A program made the position numbers and the translations under genes. Below the pieces are notes generated by a model. That model saw only the letters and a program-made list of their open reading frames with translations. It was not told where the DNA came from and searched no databases. Shown one piece after another: positions 28,085 through 63,178 of a stretch of 64,000 bases of DNA (within the stretch, counting starts at the first letter, position 1; each line of letters opens with the position of its first letter). The DNA is from Budvicia aquatica DSM 5075 = ATCC 35567 (GTDB lineage: Bacteria; Pseudomonadota; Gammaproteobacteria; Enterobacterales; Enterobacteriaceae): positions 124,190-188,189 of the forward strand of contig NZ_ATYS01000002.1 in assembly GCF_000427805.1 (NCBI RefSeq), written 5' to 3'.

Positions 28085-30181
28085 TTAGGCCAGAGAGCCA
28101 ACGATATTCAGTTCGCTTTCATCCGGTACTTCGTTATAAGACAGCACGTGAAGGCCCGGGGCGAACAGGCGAGCATAGCGCGCCAGTAATGGTCTCAACT
28201 GCGGTGTTACTAGCAGAATAGGCTCACAGCCCTGTGCTTTCATATGCTCTTTGATCACCGGCATATTGGTCTGGAGTTGCGTTAGAATATTAGGATCGAC
28301 CGGGAAGCTGTCCAACGCCACCTTGCTCGATTGTTGAGCCTGATTTAAGGAGCTAAGCAGCATGTTTTCCAGCGTATTGTCGATAGTATAGGTGGCCAGT
28401 TTTTTACGGTCCTGATTGAGCCCATAAACAATAGCGCGACGTAAGGCATAGCGAACGTCAGAAGCCAACAGAATAGGATCTTTGGTTACGCTTGAGCTTT
28501 CTAACAGCGTAGAGCTGATAGTTACAATATCTTTAAGTGAAACCTGTTCCACCAATAGCTGACGATAAATGCGCAGTAACTGGCTAAAGTTAAGGGCAGA
28601 GGATAAGTCTTCAGCCAGCTTAGGTGCAATCGATGACAGGCGTTCGTGCAGGTGAGTGATGTCATCATAATTAAACAGATCCGGCAAACACTGGCGGGCC
28701 ACTTTATTGACGTGAGTTGCTACCACGCTGGCGCAGTCAACAACCTGATAGCCCAGGTTTAATGCCTTAGGCTTTTGTTCCGGAGTAATCCAAGTAACCG
28801 GCATGCCATAAGCCGGATCGTTATCTAACACACCGTCAATCTCGCCATAGGTTTCTGTTGACGGGATCGCCATCAGTTTATCGGCATGAACTTCGCCGGT
28901 AGCAACCTTAACGCTATTAATATGAATAGCGTATTGCGCCGGCTTAAGGCGGAAATTCTCGCGGATTCGAACTTCAGGCAGTAATACGCCGCAGGTTTCA
29001 GAAATTACCTGGCGTACCCCGCGTATCCGCTGAGTCAACGGATTGCCTTTAGATTGATCGACCAGCGTCACCAGTTTATAACCCAAGTTCAGGCCAATAG
29101 GCTCAACCACCGGAATAGTATCCCAGCTTACCGTTTGGGCGGTATCTTCAACCATGGCACTGCTGACTGCCGCAATATCTTCTTCCGGCGCCGGCTTTTC
29201 TATCGCTTTACTTCTCTTCCAGGCGACAAAGACCAGTACGCCGGTAAAGGTAAGGAAGGCCATATGAGGCATGCCCGGAACAATGGCCAGAATAAACATA
29301 ACCAAAGCGGCGGTATACAGTAAGGTTGGTGATGCCAAAAGTTGAGATTTGATCTCATCAGACATATCGCCGCTGTCGCTGACGCGGGTAACAATAATAG
29401 CCGCCGCAGTTGACAGTAACAGCGACGGAATCTGGCCTACCAGGCCGTCACCGATGGTTAACAGAACATATTGTTCAAATGCGGTGCTGGCATCTAAATT
29501 ATGTTTAAAGATACCAATTAAAATACCACCGATGACGTTGATCACCAGAATCATGATGCCGGCGATAGCATCACCACGAACGAACTTAGAGGCTCCGTCC
29601 ATTGCACCATAGAAATCGGCTTCGTTAGAAACGTCTTTACGGCGGATTCTTGCCTGATCCTGATTAATTAGTCCGGCATTTAAATCAGCATCGATCGCCA
29701 TTTGCTTGCCCGGTAGGGCATCAAGCGTAAAGCGAGCCGATACTTCTGAAATCCGCTCGGCACCTTTAGTCACAACCACAAAGTTGATGATCATCAGAAT
29801 GACGAACACCACGAAGCCGACGACAAAGTTACCACCGATAACAACCTGACCAAAGGCTTCGATAACCTTACCGGCTGCGCCGACCCCTTCATGACCGTTA
29901 AGTAATACCACTCGGGTTGATGCCACGTTTAGGGTTAAACGCATCAGCGTGGTGATCAGCAATATGGTCGGGAAAATGGCGAAGTCCAGCGGTCGCTTAC
30001 TGTTGACGCTGACTAATAACACCAAAATAGCTAAGACGATATTAAAGGTAAAGAGTACGTCCAGCACGATTGGAGGTAGTGGCAGAATAACCATTGCCAA
30101 TACGCACAGCAGCAAAATTGGCACGCCAATATGTCCTGCTCTTAGCGTTGAAAATACGCCTTTTAAGGAAAACTTACTCAT
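28085..30181 (-). CDS. lfhA: FlhA-family flagellar export gate protein (lateral LfhA)
   Basis: Main export-gate component of the flagellar type III apparatus. The 698 residues have an N-terminal membrane half with about eight segments, the FHIPEP-family signature EVSARFTLDALPGKQMAID in the following loop, and a large cytosolic C-terminal domain that docks substrates and chaperones (from about residue 330). It is the last gene of the minus-strand operon lfiM-N-P-Q-R-lfhB-lfhA and overlaps lfhB by 8 bp. The gene order identifies it as lateral (Flag-2) rather than primary FlhA. Confidence 0.95.
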   Translation of the reverse strand: MSKFSLKGVFSTLRAGHIGVPILLLCVLAMVILPLPPIVLDVLFTFNIVLAILVLLVSVNSKRPLDFAIFPTILLITTLMRLTLNVASTRVVLLNGHEGVGAAGKVIEAFGQVVIGGNFVVGFVVFVILMIINFVVVTKGAERISEVSARFTLDALPGKQMAIDADLNAGLINQDQARIRRKDVSNEADFYGAMDGASKFVRGDAIAGIMILVINVIGGILIGIFKHNLDASTAFEQYVLLTIGDGLVGQIPSLLLSTAAAIIVTRVSDSGDMSDEIKSQLLASPTLLYTAALVMFILAIVPGMPHMAFLTFTGVLVFVAWKRSKAIEKPAPEEDIAAVSSAMVEDTAQTVSWDTIPVVEPIGLNLGYKLVTLVDQSKGNPLTQRIRGVRQVISETCGVLLPEVRIRENFRLKPAQYAIHINSVKVATGEVHADKLMAIPSTETYGEIDGVLDNDPAYGMPVTWITPEQKPKALNLGYQVVDCASVVATHVNKVARQCLPDLFNYDDITHLHERLSSIAPKLAEDLSSALNFSQLLRIYRQLLVEQVSLKDIVTISSTLLESSSVTKDPILLASDVRYALRRAIVYGLNQDRKKLATYTIDNTLENMLLSSLNQAQQSSKVALDSFPVDPNILTQLQTNMPVIKEHMKAQGCEPILLVTPQLRPLLARYARLFAPGLHVLSYNEVPDESELNIVGSLA

Positions 30182-41392: not shown

Positions 41393-41818
41393 ATGGACCA
41401 AACGATAAAAACGCTCCAACTGCTTAAACAGATGCGTAATCGATCTGTTTCCGAGCTAACCGGCCAGCTTTCCCAGCAAAAGCAGCTATGCCAGCGTTAT
41501 CAAAATAATATTGATGCATTGACCTCGTTGAACGAAGGCAGCCAGATTCAGTCGGGCGATACTGCTGCGCTGATGCATAACCAGTCACACTACAAAACGC
41601 ACCTTCGTCATCTGATCAACTGGCAGCAGCAAGAGTTTGCCATGGCCGATAAACAGGCTCAAACCTTGCAGACCAACTTGGTTAAAGAAGCCTGCCGGGA
41701 AAAAACGGTTGAGTTAGTGCTGGAAGATCAGCAGGCAGAAATTGCGACCGAACAGGAACGTCAGCAGCAAAAAATCACCGATGCCATGTCAACGCAGTGC
41801 TGGCTGCGCGGTCGCTGA
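41393..41818 (+). CDS. lfiJ: FliJ-family export chaperone/stalk protein (lateral LfiJ)
   Basis: Small coiled-coil protein of 141 residues, the size and charge pattern of FliJ, which inserts into the FliI hexamer. The sequence is nearly all helix-forming with many Gln, Lys and Glu (LTGQLSQQKQLCQRYQNNID). The identity rests on position after lfiI and on coiled-coil character more than on strong motifs. Last recognisable flagellar gene before the cargo segment. Confidence 0.85.
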   Translation: MDQTIKTLQLLKQMRNRSVSELTGQLSQQKQLCQRYQNNIDALTSLNEGSQIQSGDTAALMHNQSHYKTHLRHLINWQQQEFAMADKQAQTLQTNLVKEACREKTVELVLEDQQAEIATEQERQQQKITDAMSTQCWLRGR

Positions 41819-41906
41819 GCCAAAATAAAAGCAGAAGGCTATTTGCGGGTAGTTATTTCAACGATATTCAGCAATAATCTTTTCGGCCAATGGCAAAGGT
41901 AGGGTT

Positions 41907-42956
41907 ATGCGAGATATTTATTGGAAAGATATTCAACATGTTGACGGCTCTGTTGCCGGATTAATGCTGAATGTCAGCTCACCGCCCGACATCAGGCCAT
42001 CAATACAGATTATCAGCGGTAATAACGGTCGCATTAAGCTGGTTAACGGCGATAACACCTTACTTTGGGCCACGCCGGCGCTGGGGTATGAAGGTATCTG
42101 GGTAATCAATCCGCAACGTCAAACCAATACCGAGTTGCCCGTTATTCCCCCTATAACCTCAGAAGATATTCAATTTCGTATTCATTTGGCTGAAGAAGAA
42201 AAATTGAAGTCGTGGTGCCGATTTTTTGCCGATCGGGCCGCTCAGTCTGATTCGACTTTTCTCTATTCAGGTCACTGGCTGTTAACCGCTCTTTACCCGC
42301 ATCCGACTGAACAATATCGTGCCCGTGATAGATTGCATCATAATCCCATTGACCAATGGATATTCAAAGACCGGGGCCCGACAGATAGCCATTTTCCACG
42401 CTGGGCTATTTACGGCGCAGGGTTGCTCGATACTTTTAGCCACCGAGCTGTGCAGTGGGTAGATTGGTGGGATTGGAACGGCGGTGTTATCGCCCTTCAT
42501 CCGGTGGATGAATATTCAGGCCGATTAAAATGGTGGAGGAAGAAAGCGCGGGAAGGGACGTTGCCACCGGTGTTTGTCTGGTATTTACGTTGTTTCGATG
42601 CCTATCTGATTATGGACGGGCATTATCGTTTGCGAGCGGCGATGCTGGAACATATTGCCGCGGAATTTATTGTGATCTCATCGGTCAATGAATTGCATTA
42701 CGCCATGGATCAAGAGCGACAAAAGCAGATAGTAGATTCGCTGTTTTCCCCCAGGCCAAAGCACAAATCGATCCCGGTTGAACATCTTAATCAGGTGGTT
42801 ATGGCGGCGTTTGACGACCGTCCTATATTGATGCCGGTGACCAAAAGTCGGGCGATACTGGCCGATGAGTCAGTATGGATTAATGAAGTGACTCAATATC
42901 TGGCCGAGAGCGGCCAGGATGATGATATTCAAGCCATTATTGAGCGGCGAGGTTGA
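41907..42956 (+). CDS. Uncharacterised protein with ParB/sulfiredoxin-like DGHYR motif
   Basis: Not a known flagellar protein. The 349 residues have no signal peptide or membrane segment. The middle is Trp-rich (WVDWWDWNG at 184-192). At 218-245 the text TLPPVFVWYLRCFDAYLIMD leads into DGHYRLRAA (237-245), which resembles the DGHHR/GxHR box of ParB-like nuclease and sulfiredoxin folds. AAGGTAGGG precedes the ATG. It starts 88 bp after lfiJ on the same strand, so it may be read from the lfiE operon. The fold assignment is from one motif and is tentative; the function is unknown. Confidence 0.55.
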   Translation: MRDIYWKDIQHVDGSVAGLMLNVSSPPDIRPSIQIISGNNGRIKLVNGDNTLLWATPALGYEGIWVINPQRQTNTELPVIPPITSEDIQFRIHLAEEEKLKSWCRFFADRAAQSDSTFLYSGHWLLTALYPHPTEQYRARDRLHHNPIDQWIFKDRGPTDSHFPRWAIYGAGLLDTFSHRAVQWVDWWDWNGGVIALHPVDEYSGRLKWWRKKAREGTLPPVFVWYLRCFDAYLIMDGHYRLRAAMLEHIAAEFIVISSVNELHYAMDQERQKQIVDSLFSPRPKHKSIPVEHLNQVVMAAFDDRPILMPVTKSRAILADESVWINEVTQYLAESGQDDDIQAIIERRG

Positions 42957-42989
42957 TTGATTAACTCAGCGGGTAAAGAAATTCAGCAT

Positions 42990-43727
42990 TTACTCTGCCT
43001 TGTCGGTCGATATTTCAGCTGGTTGCCCGCTACGTAATTTTTTCAGGGTTTCTTCGGGTACGGTGATATAGGTTTTTTTGATGGTTTTATCGATAGGCTT
43101 GTTTTGATTAATCTCATCAATGGTCTGCTTTATTTCACTTCTATCACCGCAGGTGGCTGAAAAGTAGTGTTCACCGAAACTGTAGGCATCTGCACTTATC
43201 ACGGTGTCGCAGCTGTCGCTGTCGATGATTTTTTTCACAAATTTAATTTTTTGCTGATAATAATCATCATATTTATCGCCGTAATACTTACGGATTCTTG
43301 AGTTTTCAGCATCTTTTTCCAATATATAACGGCTGATGCGCGCAGGGTAATCGCTTTTCTCTGTTTGGCTTAAGGGTAAAACGGTTATTGCCGGTAATTG
43401 ATATAGTGCTCTATTACCGTAACTATTCATATACACATACTGGTTTGGATTAGCGGAAGAGTAATCCCGGTAAACAATACTTTTTACCTGCAAGTTAGGC
43501 GCTTCAGGCACGTCACCCTGGTAGATAAATTTCTCATTCACATTGATCTGATACTCTTTAACAGTCTGTGCAATGTTATTTAGACGGTCAGCCTGTTCTT
43601 CTGGTGTTTCAGGCACTTCCTTGATGGCTGACTGTACATTTGCAGAATGAATAACGGACAAAGTGAATAACAGCGCTGTGGCTATTTTGCTTAGCGATAA
43701 GGTGATTTTTTTACCCGACTGAGGCAT
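42990..43727 (-). CDS. Exported protein of unknown function
   Basis: 245 residues. The N-terminus (SKIATALLFTLSVIHSANVQSA) is a signal peptide with cleavage near residue 34. The mature part is charged, with many Tyr and Lys (YYGDKYDDYYQQKIKFVKKI), and one likely disulphide pair (DSDSCDTV and FSATCGDRSE). I recognise no family. It converges with the ParB-like gene (33 bp between stops) and lies 89 bp after the Sel1-repeat gene on the same strand. Confidence 0.6.
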   Translation of the reverse strand: MPQSGKKITLSLSKIATALLFTLSVIHSANVQSAIKEVPETPEEQADRLNNIAQTVKEYQINVNEKFIYQGDVPEAPNLQVKSIVYRDYSSANPNQYVYMNSYGNRALYQLPAITVLPLSQTEKSDYPARISRYILEKDAENSRIRKYYGDKYDDYYQQKIKFVKKIIDSDSCDTVISADAYSFGEHYFSATCGDRSEIKQTIDEINQNKPIDKTIKKTYITVPEETLKKLRSGQPAEISTDKAE

Positions 43728-43816
43728 ATCTTTCTTCCTTTAAAAATATCAGATGCCTGAACAGACGTTGTGGTGTGGGTTGCTTGGTTATTCAACCCAC
43801 AGCGTAATGGTATTGA

Positions 43817-44269
43817 CTATTTCTTGCGGTATTTATCGTGGTACTGCTTAGCCAGTTCTTGAGCCTGTTTTAGCTCTGCCGGTGATAATTTCTTCTCCAG
43901 CGAACTCAAGTCCATGGCAATATTTTCTCTGCCACTTAATGCAGCGACTGAATACCAGGCCCAGGCCTGTTTATTATCCTGTTGTACGCCGTTGCCTTTT
44001 TCATACATTGCGCCGAGAGCGTGCTGCGCTTGAGCAAATCCCTGTTCAGCCGATTGGGTAAACAGACTGAATGCCTGTTTGTAATCCTGTGGTGCTACAT
44101 TGCCGGTGTAATAAATAACCGCAAGATCGTATTGGCTTTCTGCATCACCTTCCTGAGCACTGTCTTTCAAAACGGCAATTTCATCGGCAATAGAGGTCGT
44201 TGCGTAAGCATAACTAAGCGGCTGTAACATCAGCAGAGCAAACGCGAGATGCTTGATTTTCATATTCAC
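43817..44269 (-). CDS. Exported Sel1-repeat protein
   Basis: 150 residues with a signal peptide (LAFALLMLQPLSYAYAT) and two Sel1-like repeats: AEGD-type spacing in GDAESQYDLAVIYYTGNVAP and GFAQAQHALGAMYEKGNGVQ, followed by a third degenerate unit (AWAWYSVAALSG). Sel1 repeats form alpha-solenoids that bind proteins. The partner is unknown. Two ATGs (44269 and 44263) are possible. Confidence 0.82.
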   Translation of the reverse strand: MNMKIKHLAFALLMLQPLSYAYATTSIADEIAVLKDSAQEGDAESQYDLAVIYYTGNVAPQDYKQAFSLFTQSAEQGFAQAQHALGAMYEKGNGVQQDNKQAWAWYSVAALSGRENIAMDLSSLEKKLSPAELKQAQELAKQYHDKYRKK

Positions 44270-44430
44270 TTATCCTGAATTATGGGGGGGACGAAGAAAC
44301 AGCTATCTGAATCATATCCCTAATTTACTGAAAATAATGGCAGAAAGTAAGAAAATCAGCAAATAGGGATATGATAATAAAATCAATATGCCGGAACCGT
44401 TATCGCTCCGGCATAGGATAAATGAATATT

Positions 44431-44973
44431 TTAGAAGCTTACGCTGGCACCGAGATAAGGGCCATCGGCCACCACGTTATCTCTGTTACCCTCTTTACCG
44501 GACAGCTTGATATAACGGTAGCCGGCATCCACGCTGATAGGGCGAATAACGCTTAAGCGTACGCCACCGGCGGCTTCGTAGTAGTCATGAACGCCACTGG
44601 TCAGTGATTCTGGCGCATAATAGCCTTCACCATACAGGGAGATATTTGAGGTTACTGGCCATCTAAGGCCACCACCGACGGCTGCGGCATAGCCGTCATC
44701 ACCCCGATCCGGGCTGAGGTACAGTGCTTTACCGCCCACTGTCGCCATCATCGGACCTATCGGAAGATTGACGCCTAAACCTAAGCCAACAACGTCGCCG
44801 TCATGATCGCTACGGGCCCAATTTGCCGTTGCTGCCAACCCGGTGGATTCCGTGCCGATTCCCACCTGGACATTAGTATAATTTTCACCGGCCTGACCGT
44901 GAATACTGATAGCGCTGGCATTGGTTGTCATTAAAAGAGTTGCACATGCGCAAACCAAAAGTAATTTTTTCAT
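44431..44973 (-). CDS. YfaZ-family outer-membrane protein
   Basis: 180 residues from ATG 44973, which has AAAGGTG nine bases upstream. The signal peptide ends NASA, followed by alternating hydrophobic strands of a small beta-barrel and the terminal aromatic residue (GASVSF). The pattern GLGLGVNLPIGPMMATVGGK and YYEAAGGVRLSVIRPISVDA matches the YfaZ family of enteric outer-membrane proteins (family recall). An upstream in-frame ATG at 45003 would add ten residues and hide the signal. Its function is unknown. Confidence 0.8.
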   Translation of the reverse strand: MKKLLLVCACATLLMTTNASAISIHGQAGENYTNVQVGIGTESTGLAATANWARSDHDGDVVGLGLGVNLPIGPMMATVGGKALYLSPDRGDDGYAAAVGGGLRWPVTSNISLYGEGYYAPESLTSGVHDYYEAAGGVRLSVIRPISVDAGYRYIKLSGKEGNRDNVVADGPYLGASVSF

Positions 44974-45196
44974 TGTGTCACCTTTAAAACATACATAGGC
45001 CAATCTTATATGGCACTGGTGATAGCAGTGTAATGCAAACGTTTGTTCTTATTGAAGTGATTTTTATAAAACAAGATTGGGATTTTCAGAAATGAATGAG
45101 CAGAATGGTACTGTAAAACATGAAATAACAGCGGAGTCATGCTAAACGCCAGGTTTTAGGCCTGATAGTTAATGATTGATTTTTACCCTATACCTA

Positions 45197-45216
45197 AGCC
45201 GGGTATATACCCGGCT
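45197..45216. repeat. 20-bp perfect palindrome between lfgN and the YfaZ gene
   Basis: The sequence AGCCGGGTATATACCCGGCT is its own reverse complement. It lies 53 bp downstream of the lfgN stop and could form a hairpin with a tiny loop or bind a dimeric protein. No T-run follows, so terminator function is unproven. The rest of 44974-45269 holds no gene that I see. Confidence 0.6.
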
Positions 45217-45269
45217 AAACCGTTTAAATTGATTTTATTATTGATTAACGGCAGGTAATCAACGTTAGA

Positions 45270-45698
45270 TTAACGCTGATAGATCAAATCCGGCTCATTG
45301 CCCAGAATTGAATTTAGGATCTCTTGCTGCATCGTCAGCAGGTTAGCATTGCGTTCATTCAGCTCTTTGCATTCAAGAACCCGCTGTTCTAAGTCTTCCC
45401 ATAATGCTTTGGCCTGAATATGATGATTGGCCGGTAAGCGGGAGAATAGAAAACGCATTCCTTCAGCATGAGGCGGAATACACATATCTTTTAGCGCGGC
45501 AATACGTTTTTTGGCTGATTCAGAGAGCAGTTGATAGATCTTCGCCATATTCTGGTTAAGCTCTTCCATGGCTTCTACTTTGCGCTCGATGATCATCGTG
45601 CGCTGCTGCTTGAGCAAATGAATAAGCTTAATATAATATTTGCGATCCTTTTGGATCTCCGACAGTATTTCCCTTACCTGTGCCTGCAACGTATTCAC
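45270..45698 (-). CDS. lfgN: FlgN-family export chaperone (lateral LfgN)
   Basis: Cytosolic chaperone for the hook-associated proteins FlgK and FlgL. The 142 residues are all-helical (VREILSEIQKDRKYYIKLIH, later ELNERNANLLTMQQEILNSI), the usual FlgN plan and length. It follows lfgM by 6 bp, the typical flgM-flgN order. Confidence 0.9.
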   Translation of the reverse strand: MNTLQAQVREILSEIQKDRKYYIKLIHLLKQQRTMIIERKVEAMEELNQNMAKIYQLLSESAKKRIAALKDMCIPPHAEGMRFLFSRLPANHHIQAKALWEDLEQRVLECKELNERNANLLTMQQEILNSILGNEPDLIYQR

Positions 45699-57521: not shown

Positions 57522-58118
57522 TTACTGCTTATCAGCTGCGTCTGGTTTTTTATCAGTAGCCGGTGCCGCAGGAGGCGTGTTTTCTAGCGGTTTGGTTGTT
57601 GTTTTAATGCTTTTAAACAGCGGAGGCGTGTACTCCAGCTTGGCGCTTTTCGGGTGAACAAAAACCAGACCATTCTGTGAAATAATGACCTGATTCTTTT
57701 CATTCTGAAAGCTGTTCAACAACATTATCCGATTGGTTGTCCCGTCAATAAGGCTATCGATCAGCCTGTTTTTCTGCGGGCTATTGTAGTAAATCGGTAG
57801 GAACTTGAAATCAGTTCCGCCACTGTTATTCTTTTCCAGCTTCATGTCTCCTTTCATGATAAAACGACTATCGCTAGGCGTTGTTATCGAGATAAGGAAA
57901 CTGTTGTTTCCCGGAAACATTCTAACGTCATAAACTTCTTCTTGTTCAGACAACAAATCATAAAAGCCCATCTGAGATTTTAGGTCAAGATCTTCTACAA
58001 CGGCTATATCAGACTCATTAGGAGGCCCATTGGCATGTGTTCTGGCAATGAATGAGACACTAATCACCATGAATAATGCCAATACAGTGGCTTTAGCTAT
58101 GGCACGCGGATAATTCAT
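57522..58118 (-). CDS. Exported protein paired with LafZ
   Basis: 198 residues with an N-terminal signal or anchor (AKATVLALFMVISVSFIARTHA), a periplasmic domain and a Pro/Ala/Lys-rich end (PPAAPATDKKPDAADKQ). I recognise no family. It overlaps the 3' end of lafZ by 26 bp, so the two are co-translated. This layout resembles membrane regulator plus periplasmic effector pairs such as ToxR-ToxS, which is inference from layout only. Confidence 0.65.
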   Translation of the reverse strand: MNYPRAIAKATVLALFMVISVSFIARTHANGPPNESDIAVVEDLDLKSQMGFYDLLSEQEEVYDVRMFPGNNSFLISITTPSDSRFIMKGDMKLEKNNSGGTDFKFLPIYYNSPQKNRLIDSLIDGTTNRIMLLNSFQNEKNQVIISQNGLVFVHPKSAKLEYTPPLFKSIKTTTKPLENTPPAAPATDKKPDAADKQ

Positions 58119-59133
58119 TTAACTTCCTTTCGATTTCCCGTAAAACAAGGTCGTTTAAACGGTCATTATTGATGCGCCAGTGGAAGATATTCATACTCAG
58201 TTCTTTATGTTCACAGCTGGTTTTAATTGAAAACGTATAGTGCAAAATAGGGTCGGACGCACGGTAATAGGCATCCAGCGTCGCGTTGTTTTTCTCCAAT
58301 AATTCATTGATTCGCTCAAGCGATGATTTTAAGCGTTCAGGTATATTATAGGCAGTTTGCCGGGTTGATTGAGTATTTTTAGAGACCCGGTACAGACTGA
58401 TATTATCATAAGGCTGCTCGTTCTCTTTTGTGACGTTCATTGCCGTTAGGCTGTCCTGTGGTGAGTCAGGGTTAAAGAAAAATACCCCAATCACAAAGGC
58501 CGCTACAATAACGGCACCAATCAGAAAATAGAAAGGGTAGCTCCGACTAAAATGCACGCCTTTAGGCGGTATATTGGCAACGGCTGGAAGATTTTTGACC
58601 TGCTTGGCTGAACTCTCTGCATCATTCTCAGATACCGGTGCCAACTGCCACCCGGTATAGCCCGGAATCTCATTATTCTGGGCTGCCTCGGCATCGCCAT
58701 CGGTTGATGCTTCAACTGAAAATGGTTCATCGGAACTCTCTTCATCAGGCACTTCATCTTCCAGATATTCACAGTACTCTTTTTCTAGCAGGTAGCCTTT
58801 TTTCGGGATGGTTTTGATTACTTTTTGATTTTTACCATCATCTTCAAGAGCGGCTCTTAATGCATGAATCGCGTTCGGTAAGCTGTTATTACCGATAATG
58901 CGTTTCTCCCAGACTAAGGCAGTCAGGCGTTCTCTGGAGAGTACAATGCCAGCGTGCTGGGCAAGAGTTTCCAGTAATTTTAGTTGGTATTCACCTAGGC
59001 GCTTAACTTCATTTGTATCCTTGTGAATGATAGAGCCCGAGGCGTGATCTATTAACCAACCATTGATGAAACAGCGTGTGTTATGTGCTTTCATTATTGA
59101 ATGAGTAAAAACCTTTTCAAGTGGCGCATTCAT
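58093..59133 (-). CDS. lafZ: LafZ-like membrane-bound transcriptional regulator (CadC/ToxR type)
   Basis: 346 residues: an N-terminal OmpR/PhoB-type winged helix (LGEYQLKLLETLAQHAGIVL, then SLPNAIHALRAALEDDG and VIKTIPKKGYLLE, about 15-120), an acidic linker, one transmembrane segment at about 199-220 and a periplasmic tail of about 125 residues with one cysteine pair (SCEH / SACHS). This is the one-component CadC/ToxR plan: sensing outside, DNA binding inside. Flag-2 loci carry lafZ at this place. A later ATG at 59094 is also possible; neither start has a strong site. Confidence 0.85.
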   Translation of the reverse strand: MNAPLEKVFTHSIMKAHNTRCFINGWLIDHASGSIIHKDTNEVKRLGEYQLKLLETLAQHAGIVLSRERLTALVWEKRIIGNNSLPNAIHALRAALEDDGKNQKVIKTIPKKGYLLEKEYCEYLEDEVPDEESSDEPFSVEASTDGDAEAAQNNEIPGYTGWQLAPVSENDAESSAKQVKNLPAVANIPPKGVHFSRSYPFYFLIGAVIVAAFVIGVFFFNPDSPQDSLTAMNVTKENEQPYDNISLYRVSKNTQSTRQTAYNIPERLKSSLERINELLEKNNATLDAYYRASDPILHYTFSIKTSCEHKELSMNIFHWRINNDRLNDLVLREIERKLNELSACHS

Positions 59134-60128: not shown

Positions 60129-60959
60129 ATGTCATTATCAATTTTTACTAATGCTTCATCCATGGCTTCAACTAACGCGTTGAACAAATCAAACAATGCA
60201 TTAGCGACAGCGATGGAACGCCTGGGTACGGGTAAACGTATCAACTCTGCCGCTGATGACGCAGCTGGTCTGCAAATTGCCACCCGCTTACAGGCTCAAT
60301 CAAACGGTATGGGCGTTGCTCAACGTAATATTTCTGACGCAACGGCCATGCTGCAAACTGCCGAAGGTGCATTTGATGAAGTGACTAATATCATGCACCG
60401 TATGAAAGACCTGGCAACTCAGGCATCGAACGGCACTAACACCGATAAAGATTTGACCTCTATGCAGTCTGAATTTAAAGAGCTGGGTACCGAGCTGGGT
60501 AATATTATGAGTAACACCTCTTACAGCGGCGATAAGCTTTTCACTAAGCTGGGTACTGCGGTTGATTTCCAAATTGGTGCGTCATCGTCAGAGAAAATGA
60601 CTTTAGATATTGCTACTGACTTGGGCAAAGTTACTACCACGACGACCGCTCTGGGAACGGCATCTATTGCAACGGGTACAGACGCCAGTGCTATGATCGA
60701 CACATTAAATGGTGCTCTGGATGAAGTCAGTACCGTGCGTTCATCTTTAGGTGCCAACATTAACCGTCTGGGCCACACGTCAAACAACCTGTCTAATATG
60801 AAAGACAATACCGACGTGGCTATCGGTAATATCATGGACGCAGACTTTGCCGCTGAAGCCTCTAATATGACCCGTAACCAGATGCTGTCTCAAACCAGCA
60901 TGTCAATGCTCAAGCAGTCTAACAGCATGTCAGGTATGGTAATGTCTCTGCTGGGATAA
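60129..60959 (+). CDS. lafA: Lateral flagellin 1
   Basis: Filament subunit, 276 residues, with only the conserved D0/D1 regions and a short variable centre (about 140-190). N-terminal SLSIFTNASSMASTNALNKS and RLGTGKRINSAADDAAGLQI, C-terminal AEASNMTRNQMLSQTSMSML followed by KQSNSMSGMVMSLLG. CTGGAG precedes the ATG. It differs from the next two copies mostly in the centre (for example FTKLGTAVDFQIGASSSEKM). Export needs LfgN-independent chaperones not in the window. Own promoter and terminator. Confidence 0.95.
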   Translation: MSLSIFTNASSMASTNALNKSNNALATAMERLGTGKRINSAADDAAGLQIATRLQAQSNGMGVAQRNISDATAMLQTAEGAFDEVTNIMHRMKDLATQASNGTNTDKDLTSMQSEFKELGTELGNIMSNTSYSGDKLFTKLGTAVDFQIGASSSEKMTLDIATDLGKVTTTTTALGTASIATGTDASAMIDTLNGALDEVSTVRSSLGANINRLGHTSNNLSNMKDNTDVAIGNIMDADFAAEASNMTRNQMLSQTSMSMLKQSNSMSGMVMSLLG

Positions 60960-60986
60960 TATTTCCGTCAGATTATATTAAGAGAG

Positions 60987-61013
60987 CACCGCCTTGATGG
61001 CGGTGTTTTTTTT
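60987..61013 (+). terminator. Terminator after flagellin 1
   Basis: Stem CACCGCC / GGCGGTG with a 5-base loop, followed by eight T bases. Confidence 0.92.
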
Positions 61014-61173
61014 ATCTCGAATTTGTTACGCGCTGAGATCAATATTGGCGAGTTTTTTATTAATGTCAGAAAGCAATAAGAAGTAATAGGTATATCGGCA
61101 CTTGTTTGATTGTTTATTATCTTTTTGAAAAATAACTAATTTTATAAATTAACTGAAAAAAATTGTTTTCGGA

Positions 61174-61200
61174 TTTAATTTTCTCACTACCTGTGTCGTT
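61174..61200 (+). promoter_or_regulatory. Sigma-28-like promoter of flagellin gene 2
   Basis: TTTAATTT (61174-61181), 11 bases, GTGTCGTT (61193-61200): the same boxes and spacing as for flagellin 1. The downstream leader (AGTACTAACCACTATGGATA) is also largely shared. Confidence 0.7.
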
Positions 61201-61258
61201 TATATTCAGTACTAACCACTATGGATAGAAATTAAATTTACTTTCAGGAGAAATACTA

Positions 61259-62098
61259 ATGTCATTATCAATTTTCACTAACGCATCGTCCATGGCTTCA
61301 ACCAATGCACTGAATAAATCAAACGGTGCATTAGCGACAGCGATGGAGCGTCTGGGTACCGGTAAGCGTATTAACTCAGCTGCTGATGACGCTGCAGGCC
61401 TGCAAATTGCCACTCGCTTACAGGCTCAGTCAAACGGTATGGGCGTAGCTCAGCGTAATATTTCTGACGCAACGGCGATGCTGCAAACGGCTGAAGGTGC
61501 ATTTGATGAAGTCACTAACATCCTGCACCGTATGAAAGACCTGTCTACTCAGGCATCGAACGGTACTAACACTGATAAAGATTTAACCTCTATGCAGTCT
61601 GAATTTGGTGAGTTAAGCAAAGAGTTAACCAATATCATGGAGAACACCTCTTACAGCGGCGACAAATTATTTGGTACTGATAAGTTAGGTAGTGCTGTAA
61701 CGTTCCAAATTGGTGCCAGCTCAAGTGAAACCATGGAATTAGACCTGAGTGCAACGCTGACTGCGCTGAATACCGAGCTGAAAACCACCGTTGGCGGTGG
61801 CGATATCAGTGCCAGTGCTGATGCTAACACGATGATCACCACCATCAATACCGCGCTGGACAACGTCAGTGGCGTGCGTTCAACCTTAGGTGCCAACATT
61901 AACCGCCTGGGCCACACGTCAAACAACCTGTCTAATATGAAAGACAACACCGACGTGGCTATCGGTAACATCATGGATGCAGACTTTGCCGCTGAAGCCT
62001 CTAACATGACCCGTAACCAGATGCTGTCTCAAACTAGCATGTCAATGCTCAAGCAGTCTAACAGCATGTCTGGTATGGTGATGTCTCTGCTGGGTTAA
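61259..62098 (+). CDS. lafA: Lateral flagellin 2
   Basis: 279 residues, short flagellin with D0/D1 only. It differs from flagellin 3 at only seven residues (for example Gly23 against Asn23), most of them in the variable centre, and is three residues longer than flagellin 1. AGGAG precedes the ATG. Tandem duplication is the simplest explanation. Own promoter and terminator, so each copy can be expressed separately. Confidence 0.95.
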   Translation: MSLSIFTNASSMASTNALNKSNGALATAMERLGTGKRINSAADDAAGLQIATRLQAQSNGMGVAQRNISDATAMLQTAEGAFDEVTNILHRMKDLSTQASNGTNTDKDLTSMQSEFGELSKELTNIMENTSYSGDKLFGTDKLGSAVTFQIGASSSETMELDLSATLTALNTELKTTVGGGDISASADANTMITTINTALDNVSGVRSTLGANINRLGHTSNNLSNMKDNTDVAIGNIMDADFAAEASNMTRNQMLSQTSMSMLKQSNSMSGMVMSLLG

Positions 62099-62123
62099 TC
62101 CAAAGCGATAGAATGACGTTAAG

Positions 62124-62155
62124 AATGGCGCCTTTTTTAAAGGCGCCATTTTTTA
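62124..62155 (+). terminator. Terminator after flagellin 2
   Basis: Stem AATGGCGCCTTT / AAAGGCGCCATT with a 3-base loop, followed by a T-run. Confidence 0.92.
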
Positions 62156-62234
62156 TTGCGCGAGTGTCTATAAGATTCTTTTAATTTCAGTAAGTTATTT
62201 ATTTTAGAAATGATTAAAAAAAATCCATTTTGAA

Positions 62235-62261
62235 TTTAATTTCTCGATGCGTTGTGCCGTC
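62235..62261 (+). promoter_or_regulatory. Sigma-28-like promoter of flagellin gene 3
   Basis: TTTAATTT (62235-62242), 11 bases, GTGCCGTC (62254-62261). The -10 half differs slightly from copies 1 and 2 but keeps the CCG core of sigma-28 sites. Confidence 0.66.
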
Positions 62262-62338
62262 TTTATTAAGTACTAACCACATGGAATTTAGTTCTAACCA
62301 AACAACAGCATGACTGTTCTATATCAGGAGATATCACA

Positions 62339-63178
62339 ATGTCATTATCCATTTTTACCAATGCTTCATCTATGGCTTCAACGAATGCACTGAATAAATC
62401 AAACAATGCATTAGCGACAGCAATGGAACGCTTAGGAACAGGTAAGCGTATTAACTCTGCGGCTGATGACGCTGCAGGCCTGCAAATTGCTACTCGCCTA
62501 CAGGCACAGTCAAACGGTATGGGGGTTGCTCAGCGTAATATTTCTGACGCAACGGCGATGCTGCAAACTGCTGAAGGCGCATTTGATGAAGTGACTAACA
62601 TCCTGCACCGTATGAAAGACCTGTCTACTCAGGCATCGAACGGCACTAACACCGATAAAGATTTAACCTCTATGCAGTCTGAATTTGGTGAGTTAAGCAA
62701 AGAATTAACCAACATTATGGATAACACCTCTTACAGCGGCGACAAATTATTTGGTGCTGATAAGTTAGGTAGTGCCGTAACGTTCCAGATTGGTGCCAGC
62801 TCAAGCGAAACCATGGAATTAGATCTGAGCACAACGCTGACTGCGCTGAACACCGAGCTGAAAACCACCGTAGGCGCTGGTGATATCAGTGCCAGTGCTG
62901 ATGCTAACGCGATGATCTCTACCATCAATACCGCGCTGGATAACGTTAGTGGCGTGCGCTCAACCTTGGGTGCCAACATTAACCGCCTGGGCCACACGTC
63001 AAACAACCTGTCTAATATGAAAGACAACACCGACGTGGCTATCGGTAATATCATGGATGCAGACTTTGCCGCTGAAGCCTCTAACATGACCCGTAACCAG
63101 ATGCTGTCTCAAACCAGCATGTCAATGCTTAAGCAGTCTAACAGCATGTCAGGTATGGTAATGTCACTGTTAGGCTAA
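62339..63178 (+). CDS. lafA: Lateral flagellin 3
   Basis: 279 residues, near-identical to flagellin 2. Same D0/D1 plan and the same C-terminus NSMSGMVMSLLG. CAGGAG precedes the ATG. The leader is about 20 bp longer than in the other copies. Last of three tandem copies; the cap gene lafB follows after 357 bp. Confidence 0.95.
   Translation: MSLSIFTNASSMASTNALNKSNNALATAMERLGTGKRINSAADDAAGLQIATRLQAQSNGMGVAQRNISDATAMLQTAEGAFDEVTNILHRMKDLSTQASNGTNTDKDLTSMQSEFGELSKELTNIMDNTSYSGDKLFGADKLGSAVTFQIGASSSETMELDLSTTLTALNTELKTTVGAGDISASADANAMISTINTALDNVSGVRSTLGANINRLGHTSNNLSNMKDNTDVAIGNIMDADFAAEASNMTRNQMLSQTSMSMLKQSNSMSGMVMSLLG

Follow-up and report, generated by a model that had tools for sequence, protein, structure and literature searches.

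A stand-alone protein family with a predicted ParB/Srx/SerK-type fold and its member in the Flag-2 variable region VR1 of Budvicia aquatica

The Flag-2 (lateral) flagellar locus of Budvicia aquatica contains, between lfiJ and lfgN, a gene coding for a 349-residue protein, and this raises the question of whether the protein serves the flagellum or another purpose. The window, i.e., the whole stretch of 64,000 nucleotides that was analysed, had previously been interpreted from the DNA letters alone. In that sequence-only reading, the protein was described as ParB/sulfiredoxin-like and its gene was proposed to be either cargo or a novel component that regulates or modifies the lateral system. We consider, with moderate confidence, that the gene is a stand-alone cargo of the VR1 island and that its product belongs to the ParB/Srx/SerK superfamily, with an NTP-binding or phosphotransfer function and perhaps a role in conflict.

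The gene and its flagellar surroundings

Translation of the open reading frame, from an ATG to the end of its stop codon (Table 1), showed that the coordinates, strand and 349-residue length given in the sequence-only reading were exact. Three other details of that reading were also found in the DNA: the gene is co-directional with lfiJ, whose end lies 88 bp upstream; its product contains the DGHYRLRAA box; and the centre of the protein is rich in tryptophan, with 15 Trp overall (4.3%, vs. 0.7% in five adjoining flagellar proteins), seven of them within residues 166–210. Since the mean Trp content of 77 aligned family members is 4.5%, this richness is a family trait. The gene is present as a single copy in the 5.67-Mb genome, and its GC content is not aberrant (48.4%, vs. 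46.7% for the whole window). A search of 99 relatives found the gene in four genomes, its own included, and a five-member profile located it in 41 of the 392 genomes of the same bacterial family, corresponding to 18 of 154 genera. Intact, stand-alone open frames of 343–416 aa occur in 39 of these 41 genomes; of the other two copies, one is in pieces with stops (G029) and one is a 54-residue fragment (G382). The intact relatives, together with dN/dS values of 0.04–0.30 in every one of the 16 closely related pairs compared, indicated a genuine gene rather than a chance open reading frame. The family is under purifying selection.

Table 1. Positions in the window of the gene, the parts of its product and the VR1 interval.
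Feature	Position	Strand	Basis
Putative cargo gene, 349-aa product (family-specific N-terminal domain and ParB/Srx/SerK-type domain)	41907..42956	+	ORF, family, predicted fold
N-terminal domain, residues 1–121	41907..42269	+	six strands and two helices, predicted
ParB/Srx-fold domain, residues ~126–262	42282..42692	+	structural alignment of predicted model
Basic helix and Pro turn, residues 206–221	42522..42569	+	alignment conservation; putative phosphate binding, by analogy
DGHYRLRAA box, residues 237–245	42615..42641	+	alignment conservation; aligned with ParB_N 'GERR' box
VR1, lfiJ–lfgN interval (window gene and three minus-strand genes)	41819..45269		single copy in genome
lfiJ, FliJ-type export protein, left VR1 border	41393..41818	+	PF02050 3e-12, TIGR02473 2e-19
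VR1 neighbour, 245-aa protein, signal-peptide-like start by eye	42990..43727	-	no Pfam/NCBIfam match
VR1 neighbour, Sel1-repeat protein, 150 aa	43817..44269	-	PF08238 8.7e-17
VR1 neighbour, YfaZ-family outer-membrane protein	44431..45003	-	PF07437 1.1e-71
lfgN, right VR1 border, named from locus position	45270..45698	-	homologue in 16/20 other Flag-2 stretches

The lfiJ–lfgN junction, which had been regarded as an insertion point, corresponds to the variable region VR1 described by De Maayer et al. (2020; PMC6993521) as a cargo hotspot between these two genes. In the text consulted of that work, VR1 is present in 382 of 592 Flag-2 strains, flagellin-modification genes are common in it, and B. 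aquatica and Pragia fontium are listed as having Flag-2 without Flag-1; the word 'ParB' is absent from its main text. In the whole assembly studied here, just one FHIPEP (PF00771) gene was detected, lfhA (window 28085–30181), which suggests that this genome has no flagellar system besides the 'lateral' Flag-2. Two further features of the locus were recognised by eye: three tandem, very similar flagellin-like genes of the lafA type (window 60129–63178) and, ahead of them, a candidate CadC/ToxR-like winged-helix regulator gene (window 58093–59133).

The link with the flagellum was assessed from the co-occurrence of the gene with lfiJ. Among the 392 genomes, 54 carried a strong lfiJ (defined as more than 70 bits; 11 of 65 lfiJ matches, all below 43 bits, were excluded from the Flag-2 count), and 7 carried both lfiJ and the gene, against 5.65 expected (Fisher two-sided p=0.48; p=0.62 without the B. 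aquatica genome and the two fragmentary copies, G029 and G382). A strong lfiJ was lacking in 34 of the 41 gene-positive genomes. The two genes were adjacent only in the window's genome, and in the six other double-positive genomes they were either on separate contigs or separated by 70 kb or more. VR1 was also inspected in 20 of the 53 further genomes with a strong lfiJ, 16 of these stretches reaching lfgN and four being seen in part: neither the window gene nor any of its three VR1 neighbours was detected in any of them (tblastn E 1e-3), and in one (L157) the matches to lfiJ and lfgN were only ~20 bp apart. The distribution of the gene is thus independent of Flag-2, and the regulatory or modifying role proposed for it in the lateral system is left unsupported. 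What can be said for such a role is that the gene follows lfiJ in the same direction, that a simple scan found no promoter-like or terminator-like site in the 88-bp gap, so that read-through from lfiJ would be possible, and that VR1 often houses flagellin-modification genes (PMC6993521); against these points stand the p value, the adjacency in a single genome, the 34 gene-positive genomes lacking a strong lfiJ and the 20 Flag-2 stretches lacking the gene, and we regard this role as the least probable of all the explanations weighed here. The same lack of association, together with the absence from the 20 stretches, argued against a Flag-2 core or accessory gene. The other option of the sequence-only reading, cargo, agrees with both the published hotspot and that absence, and the gene is most likely a VR1 passenger and not part of the flagellum. 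For the flagellar field this is a negative result: another VR1 passenger, and no Flag-2 component.

Predicted fold and conserved pocket

Used alone as a query, the window protein matched nothing in Pfam, in NCBIfam or among the PDB sequences. Its AlphaFold2 model was obtained with a mean pLDDT of 91.6 and a pTM of 0.91. Foldseek matches of this model were weak, the best being ParB of Myxococcus (E 0.083). A second look with VIA-align, restricted to the candidates of Foldseek, placed ParB (7bnr_A; Z 6.6, rmsd 3.0, 74 residues aligned), Srx (6ky4; Z 6.5, rmsd 2.5 A, 78 residues), SerK (5x0g; Z 6.1, rmsd 4.5, 82 residues) and SbnI (5ujd_A; Z 6.0, rmsd 2.5, 76 residues) at the top, all at residues ~126–262. 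Thirty of the 31 best entries were ParB, Spo0J, KorB, Noc, PadC, Srx, SerK (with 1vk1) or SbnI, with Z values from 3.7 to 6.6; the sole other was an unnamed protein, Atu1540 (row 29), and unrelated entries appeared from Z 3.6. Every Z value is below 8 and refers to a predicted model; despite this, the sequence evidence points in the same direction as the fold match. When the 77-member profile was compared with the PDB sequences, four of five matches were SerK or the Pyrococcus protein 1vk1 (E 0.18–0.44, covering only the motif). Ten of the 77 members, with the window protein not among them, gave weak matches to the NCBIfam SerK model (best E 0.013), and seven gave weak matches to parB_part (TIGR00180). 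A profile–profile comparison (hhalign) with a ParB_N alignment of 16 sequences yielded E 2.9e-4 and a probability of 40% over 35 columns, in which the DGHYRLRAA box was aligned with the 'GERR' box of ParB_N. As modelled, the window protein has a core fold of the ParB/Srx/SerK type, in agreement with the likeness proposed in the sequence-only reading. Eight Pfam families were matched; PF02195 (ParB_N) was not one of them, none of the 77 members matching it at E <=1. The ParB-CTPase fold was surveyed in 2025 (PMC12704722) with a domain search based on PF02195, so the family was probably not covered by that survey.

Alignment of the 77 members, which are 19–40% identical to the window protein, revealed a group of nearly invariant residues. 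R206, R211, P221, G238 and R241 are present in all 77 members, K212, P220, D237, A244 and E248 in 76, and K208 in 75; G238 and R241 belong to a phosphate-type box (GxxR/DGHxR). These residues are kept from Actinomycetota to Bacteroidota. Such constancy at so low an identity suggests that they form a pocket that binds a ligand. This ligand may be a nucleotide, since the ParB-CTPase-fold superfamily includes ATP, GTP and CTP binders (PMC12704722), and by analogy residues 206–221 would bind phosphate. Position 239 is His in 72 members and Asn in the remaining five. This position is the one that we take, from the Srx motif, to be equivalent to the catalytic Cys, which makes a sulfiredoxin in the catalytic sense unlikely.

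The N-terminal domain is specific to the family, and its W103 is present in all 77 members. When this domain was predicted and searched on its own, no convincing match was found in the PDB (best Foldseek E 0.12, to a LolA mutant; best VIA Z 3.5), and the matches from BFVD were weak, with an E of 0.0048 at best, and in many cases ParB-like. We make no claim of a new fold for this domain from the poor PDB matches.

Relatives and their genomic settings

A relative is encoded by 128 of 183 candidate stretches in named genomes, and the best 80 of these 128 were used for the flank and locus analyses. They come from Pseudomonas, many Enterobacterales, Lysobacter, Psychrobacter, Myroides, Marinifilum, a Campylobacteraceae MAG, Myxococcota, Streptomyces and Actinoplanes, among others. 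Four of the 80 loci (L083, L088, L098 and L104) were left out of the 77-member alignment as broken or partial. The broken copies in L083, L098 and G029 indicate that the gene is dispensable at least there. Relatives were also found in 37 plasmid records (32 of Cronobacter and five of Streptomyces) and in 71 of 5426 E. coli genomes, 50 of these matches covering at least 80% of the query. The E. coli copies were recovered with a Leclercia relative as query, and blastn with the DNA of the window gene gave nothing in E. coli. A class-level search with the 77-member profile identified one genome of 369, that of the window, and no relative was found among the phage records and viral contigs searched. 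The RefSeq label 'ParB/Srx family N-terminal domain-containing protein' is carried, among the matches listed, by most Cronobacter and all E. coli copies. A literature search whose scope left out most subscription papers and all preprints retrieved no paper on this label or on WP_000141606, and among the papers on related words it found the family in no title or abstract start. The family is widespread but uncharacterised.

In an 85-row tree, bacterial families clustered (17 label changes, vs. a minimum of 16). The window protein fell outside a 36-row Enterobacterales clade (support 99) on a long branch, which makes its position unsure. Forcing it among the Enterobacterales in an AU test with 40 of the 85 rows cost 6.0 log units and was not rejected (p=0.059). 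For these reasons, a separate arrival of the window gene is likely but not proved.

The 309 flanking ORFs of the best 80 loci (up to two per side) fell into 210 clusters, so there is no universal partner; the neighbour ORFs of GC-rich loci were called by a simple script, and some of them are spurious. Settings were judged by inspection, and the island pattern described here is uncontrolled. Four of the 71 E. coli matches were opened, one of which was a remnant. The copies in the other three lie beside BREX genes, with type I restriction–modification genes in two loci and a tRNA-Leu in view in two, and each is followed by a gene for a 180-aa protein. In Buttiauxella, the relative lies downstream of type I restriction–modification genes and is accompanied by a homologue of this E. 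coli partner (E 1.2e-89). The small partner shows, by eye, a membrane-anchor-like start in both species (L191 14001–15587 in E. coli; L077 10001–11609 in Buttiauxella). Counted separately from the gene, the partner matches 71 of 5426 E. coli genomes, 49 of them at >80% coverage. It occurs in seven of the 392 family-level genomes, only one of which (G412) also carries the gene, adjacent to it; a fixed module of gene and partner was therefore rejected. A C5-methylase is encoded within 3 kb of the Leclercia relative, the Kosakonia relative comes directly after the PADLOC candidate PDC-M27A-C, and MkoC-like and HipA-like proteins are encoded beside that of Superficieibacter. Ordinary metabolic genes are common neighbours as well. 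PADLOC models gave no match for the window protein and weak BrxA matches for two of the 77 members (best E 0.003). The island-type settings suggest that the gene serves in conflict, i.e., phage defence or competition, and not in motility. Such a role is the likeliest purpose and, at the same time, the weakest step of the explanation.

Possible functions and comparison with known systems

By analogy with the superfamily, the product would be NTP-binding and probably phosphotransferring. The near-invariant R206, K208, R211 and K212, together with the DGHxR box, would bind the phosphates of an NTP or of ADP, and the protein may work alone with its bound nucleotide. It could then either transfer phosphate to a small molecule, as SerK and SbnI do, or act as an NTP-dependent switch devoid of DNA-clamp parts, perhaps in conflict rather than in motility. 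A more specific proposal, which we hold to be rather unlikely in this full form, is that of a single-gene family of NTP-dependent ParB/Srx-fold proteins with their own N-domain, found in defence/competition islands of Enterobacterales and in Pseudomonas, Bacteroidota and Actinomycetota, that would act as stand-alone conflict effectors, e.g., as a nucleotide or tRNA-end kinase answering infection, paired in E. coli and Buttiauxella with the small, possibly membrane-bound protein.

The main rival of a conflict role is a metabolic one, in which the product would resemble archaeal SerK and staphylococcal SbnI: a kinase of free, serine-like amino acids that uses ADP or ATP to phosphorylate a small hydroxyl substrate and feeds secondary metabolism or that of cysteine. 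SerK tops the PDB profile matches and is the commonest weak NCBIfam match, both proteins appear in the list of structural matches, cysH and cysG flank the gene in five of five Lonsdalea/Brenneria loci (L053, L068, L076, L096 and L098, the last with a broken copy; Pfam names confirmed for L096), and a large NRPS-like ORF, recognised by eye, lies upstream in 12 of 14 Pseudomonas loci. These cys and NRPS settings are, however, lineage-specific, SerK is not known to have an N-terminal domain of the type of this family, and no conserved counterpart was recognised for its E30, which we take to be the catalytic residue and whose mutants are named in the PDB titles of the structural matches. We judge this kinase activity possible, though well short of probable. 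Less likely than this would be an orphan protein that confers immunity, or serves as an antitoxin, in polymorphic-toxin/T6SS systems. Such a protein would suit the tandem copies in 11 of the 80 loci (ten of them Pseudomonas loci, L040–L049, with two or three diverged copies), the T6SS-immunity lipoprotein gene (NF045617) directly upstream in G017, G201 and Serratia L080, the SUKH gene two genes from the L099 copy, the DUF4279 gene adjoining the L086 copy, and, on a Cronobacter plasmid, the annotated MafI and polymorphic-toxin-type genes at a distance of a few kb. Nevertheless, no toxin partner is fixed, and the lipoprotein is adjacent in only two of 40 genomes (the G382 fragment being left out of the 41), both of one genus, the Serratia copy being a close relative in the tree of the lipoprotein-linked one. 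Moreover, the pocket conserved from Actinomycetota to Bacteroidota and the low dN/dS fit an enzyme better than an inhibitor.

Two other functions are far less probable. A CTP-dependent DNA clamp of the ParB/Noc kind, which we consider very unlikely, is favoured by the best structural match, Myxococcus ParB (tied with Srx), and by the weak TIGR00180 matches of seven members; yet Pfam found no HTH or dimerisation domain, and the neighbours of the gene in the window are flagellar and VR1 genes, with no parA seen among them. Slightly more improbable still is an accessory protein of RNA repair. In two Psychrobacter loci (L101 6596–12637 and L102 6871–12784), the relative has a Ro60/rsr gene on one side and rtcB on the other, and an ORF judged by eye to be RtcA-like comes further along; in the Campylobacteraceae MAG it is followed by a kinase-like gene and Thg1; and in Verrucosispora L115 it is convergent with rtcB. 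These are, however, three lineages among 80 loci, noticed post hoc and uncontrolled, and a third Psychrobacter locus (L104, a 10.6-kb contig) gave no rtcB match. Since the class-level search detected only the window's own genome, this lead was not enlarged. The favoured explanation, a VR1 cargo coding for an NTP-binding or phosphotransfer protein that may act in conflict, would extend the ParB/Srx fold by a branch that stands alone, crosses phyla and has a conserved pocket.

Among systems already named, the proteins under the RefSeq label mentioned above, e.g., the E. coli protein WP_000141606.1 (30% identity over 348 aa) and the Cronobacter plasmid copies (33–35% identity), belong to the same family as the window protein. 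The labelled relatives differ from it in their genomic setting, and the partner gene downstream of the E. coli copy is missing from the B. aquatica genome. Sulfiredoxin shares the predicted core fold but not the presumed catalytic Cys, replaced by His or Asn in all members. The N-terminal CTPase domain of ParB/Noc (PF02195) likewise shares the core fold and the phosphate-motif box, whereas the family shows no match to PF02195, no HTH was found, and parA is not beside the window gene. Tox-ParB domains of polymorphic toxins are described, in the part of PMC3482391 consulted, as having a ParB fold and a strongly conserved DGHHR motif, similar to that of the window family; a toxin tip of this kind was discarded as an identity for the window protein, because all 39 intact relatives are stand-alone frames with no delivery protein attached. 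SerK (NF053625; PDB 5x0b, 5x0e, 5x0g, 5x0j and 5x0k) and SbnI (5ujd and 6nr6) share both the ParB/Srx core and the D-G-H-x-R box; they are the best PDB sequence matches of the family and are also among its best structural ones. The window family differs from them in the E30 of SerK, for which it has no recognised counterpart, and in its additional N-terminal domain of 121 residues.
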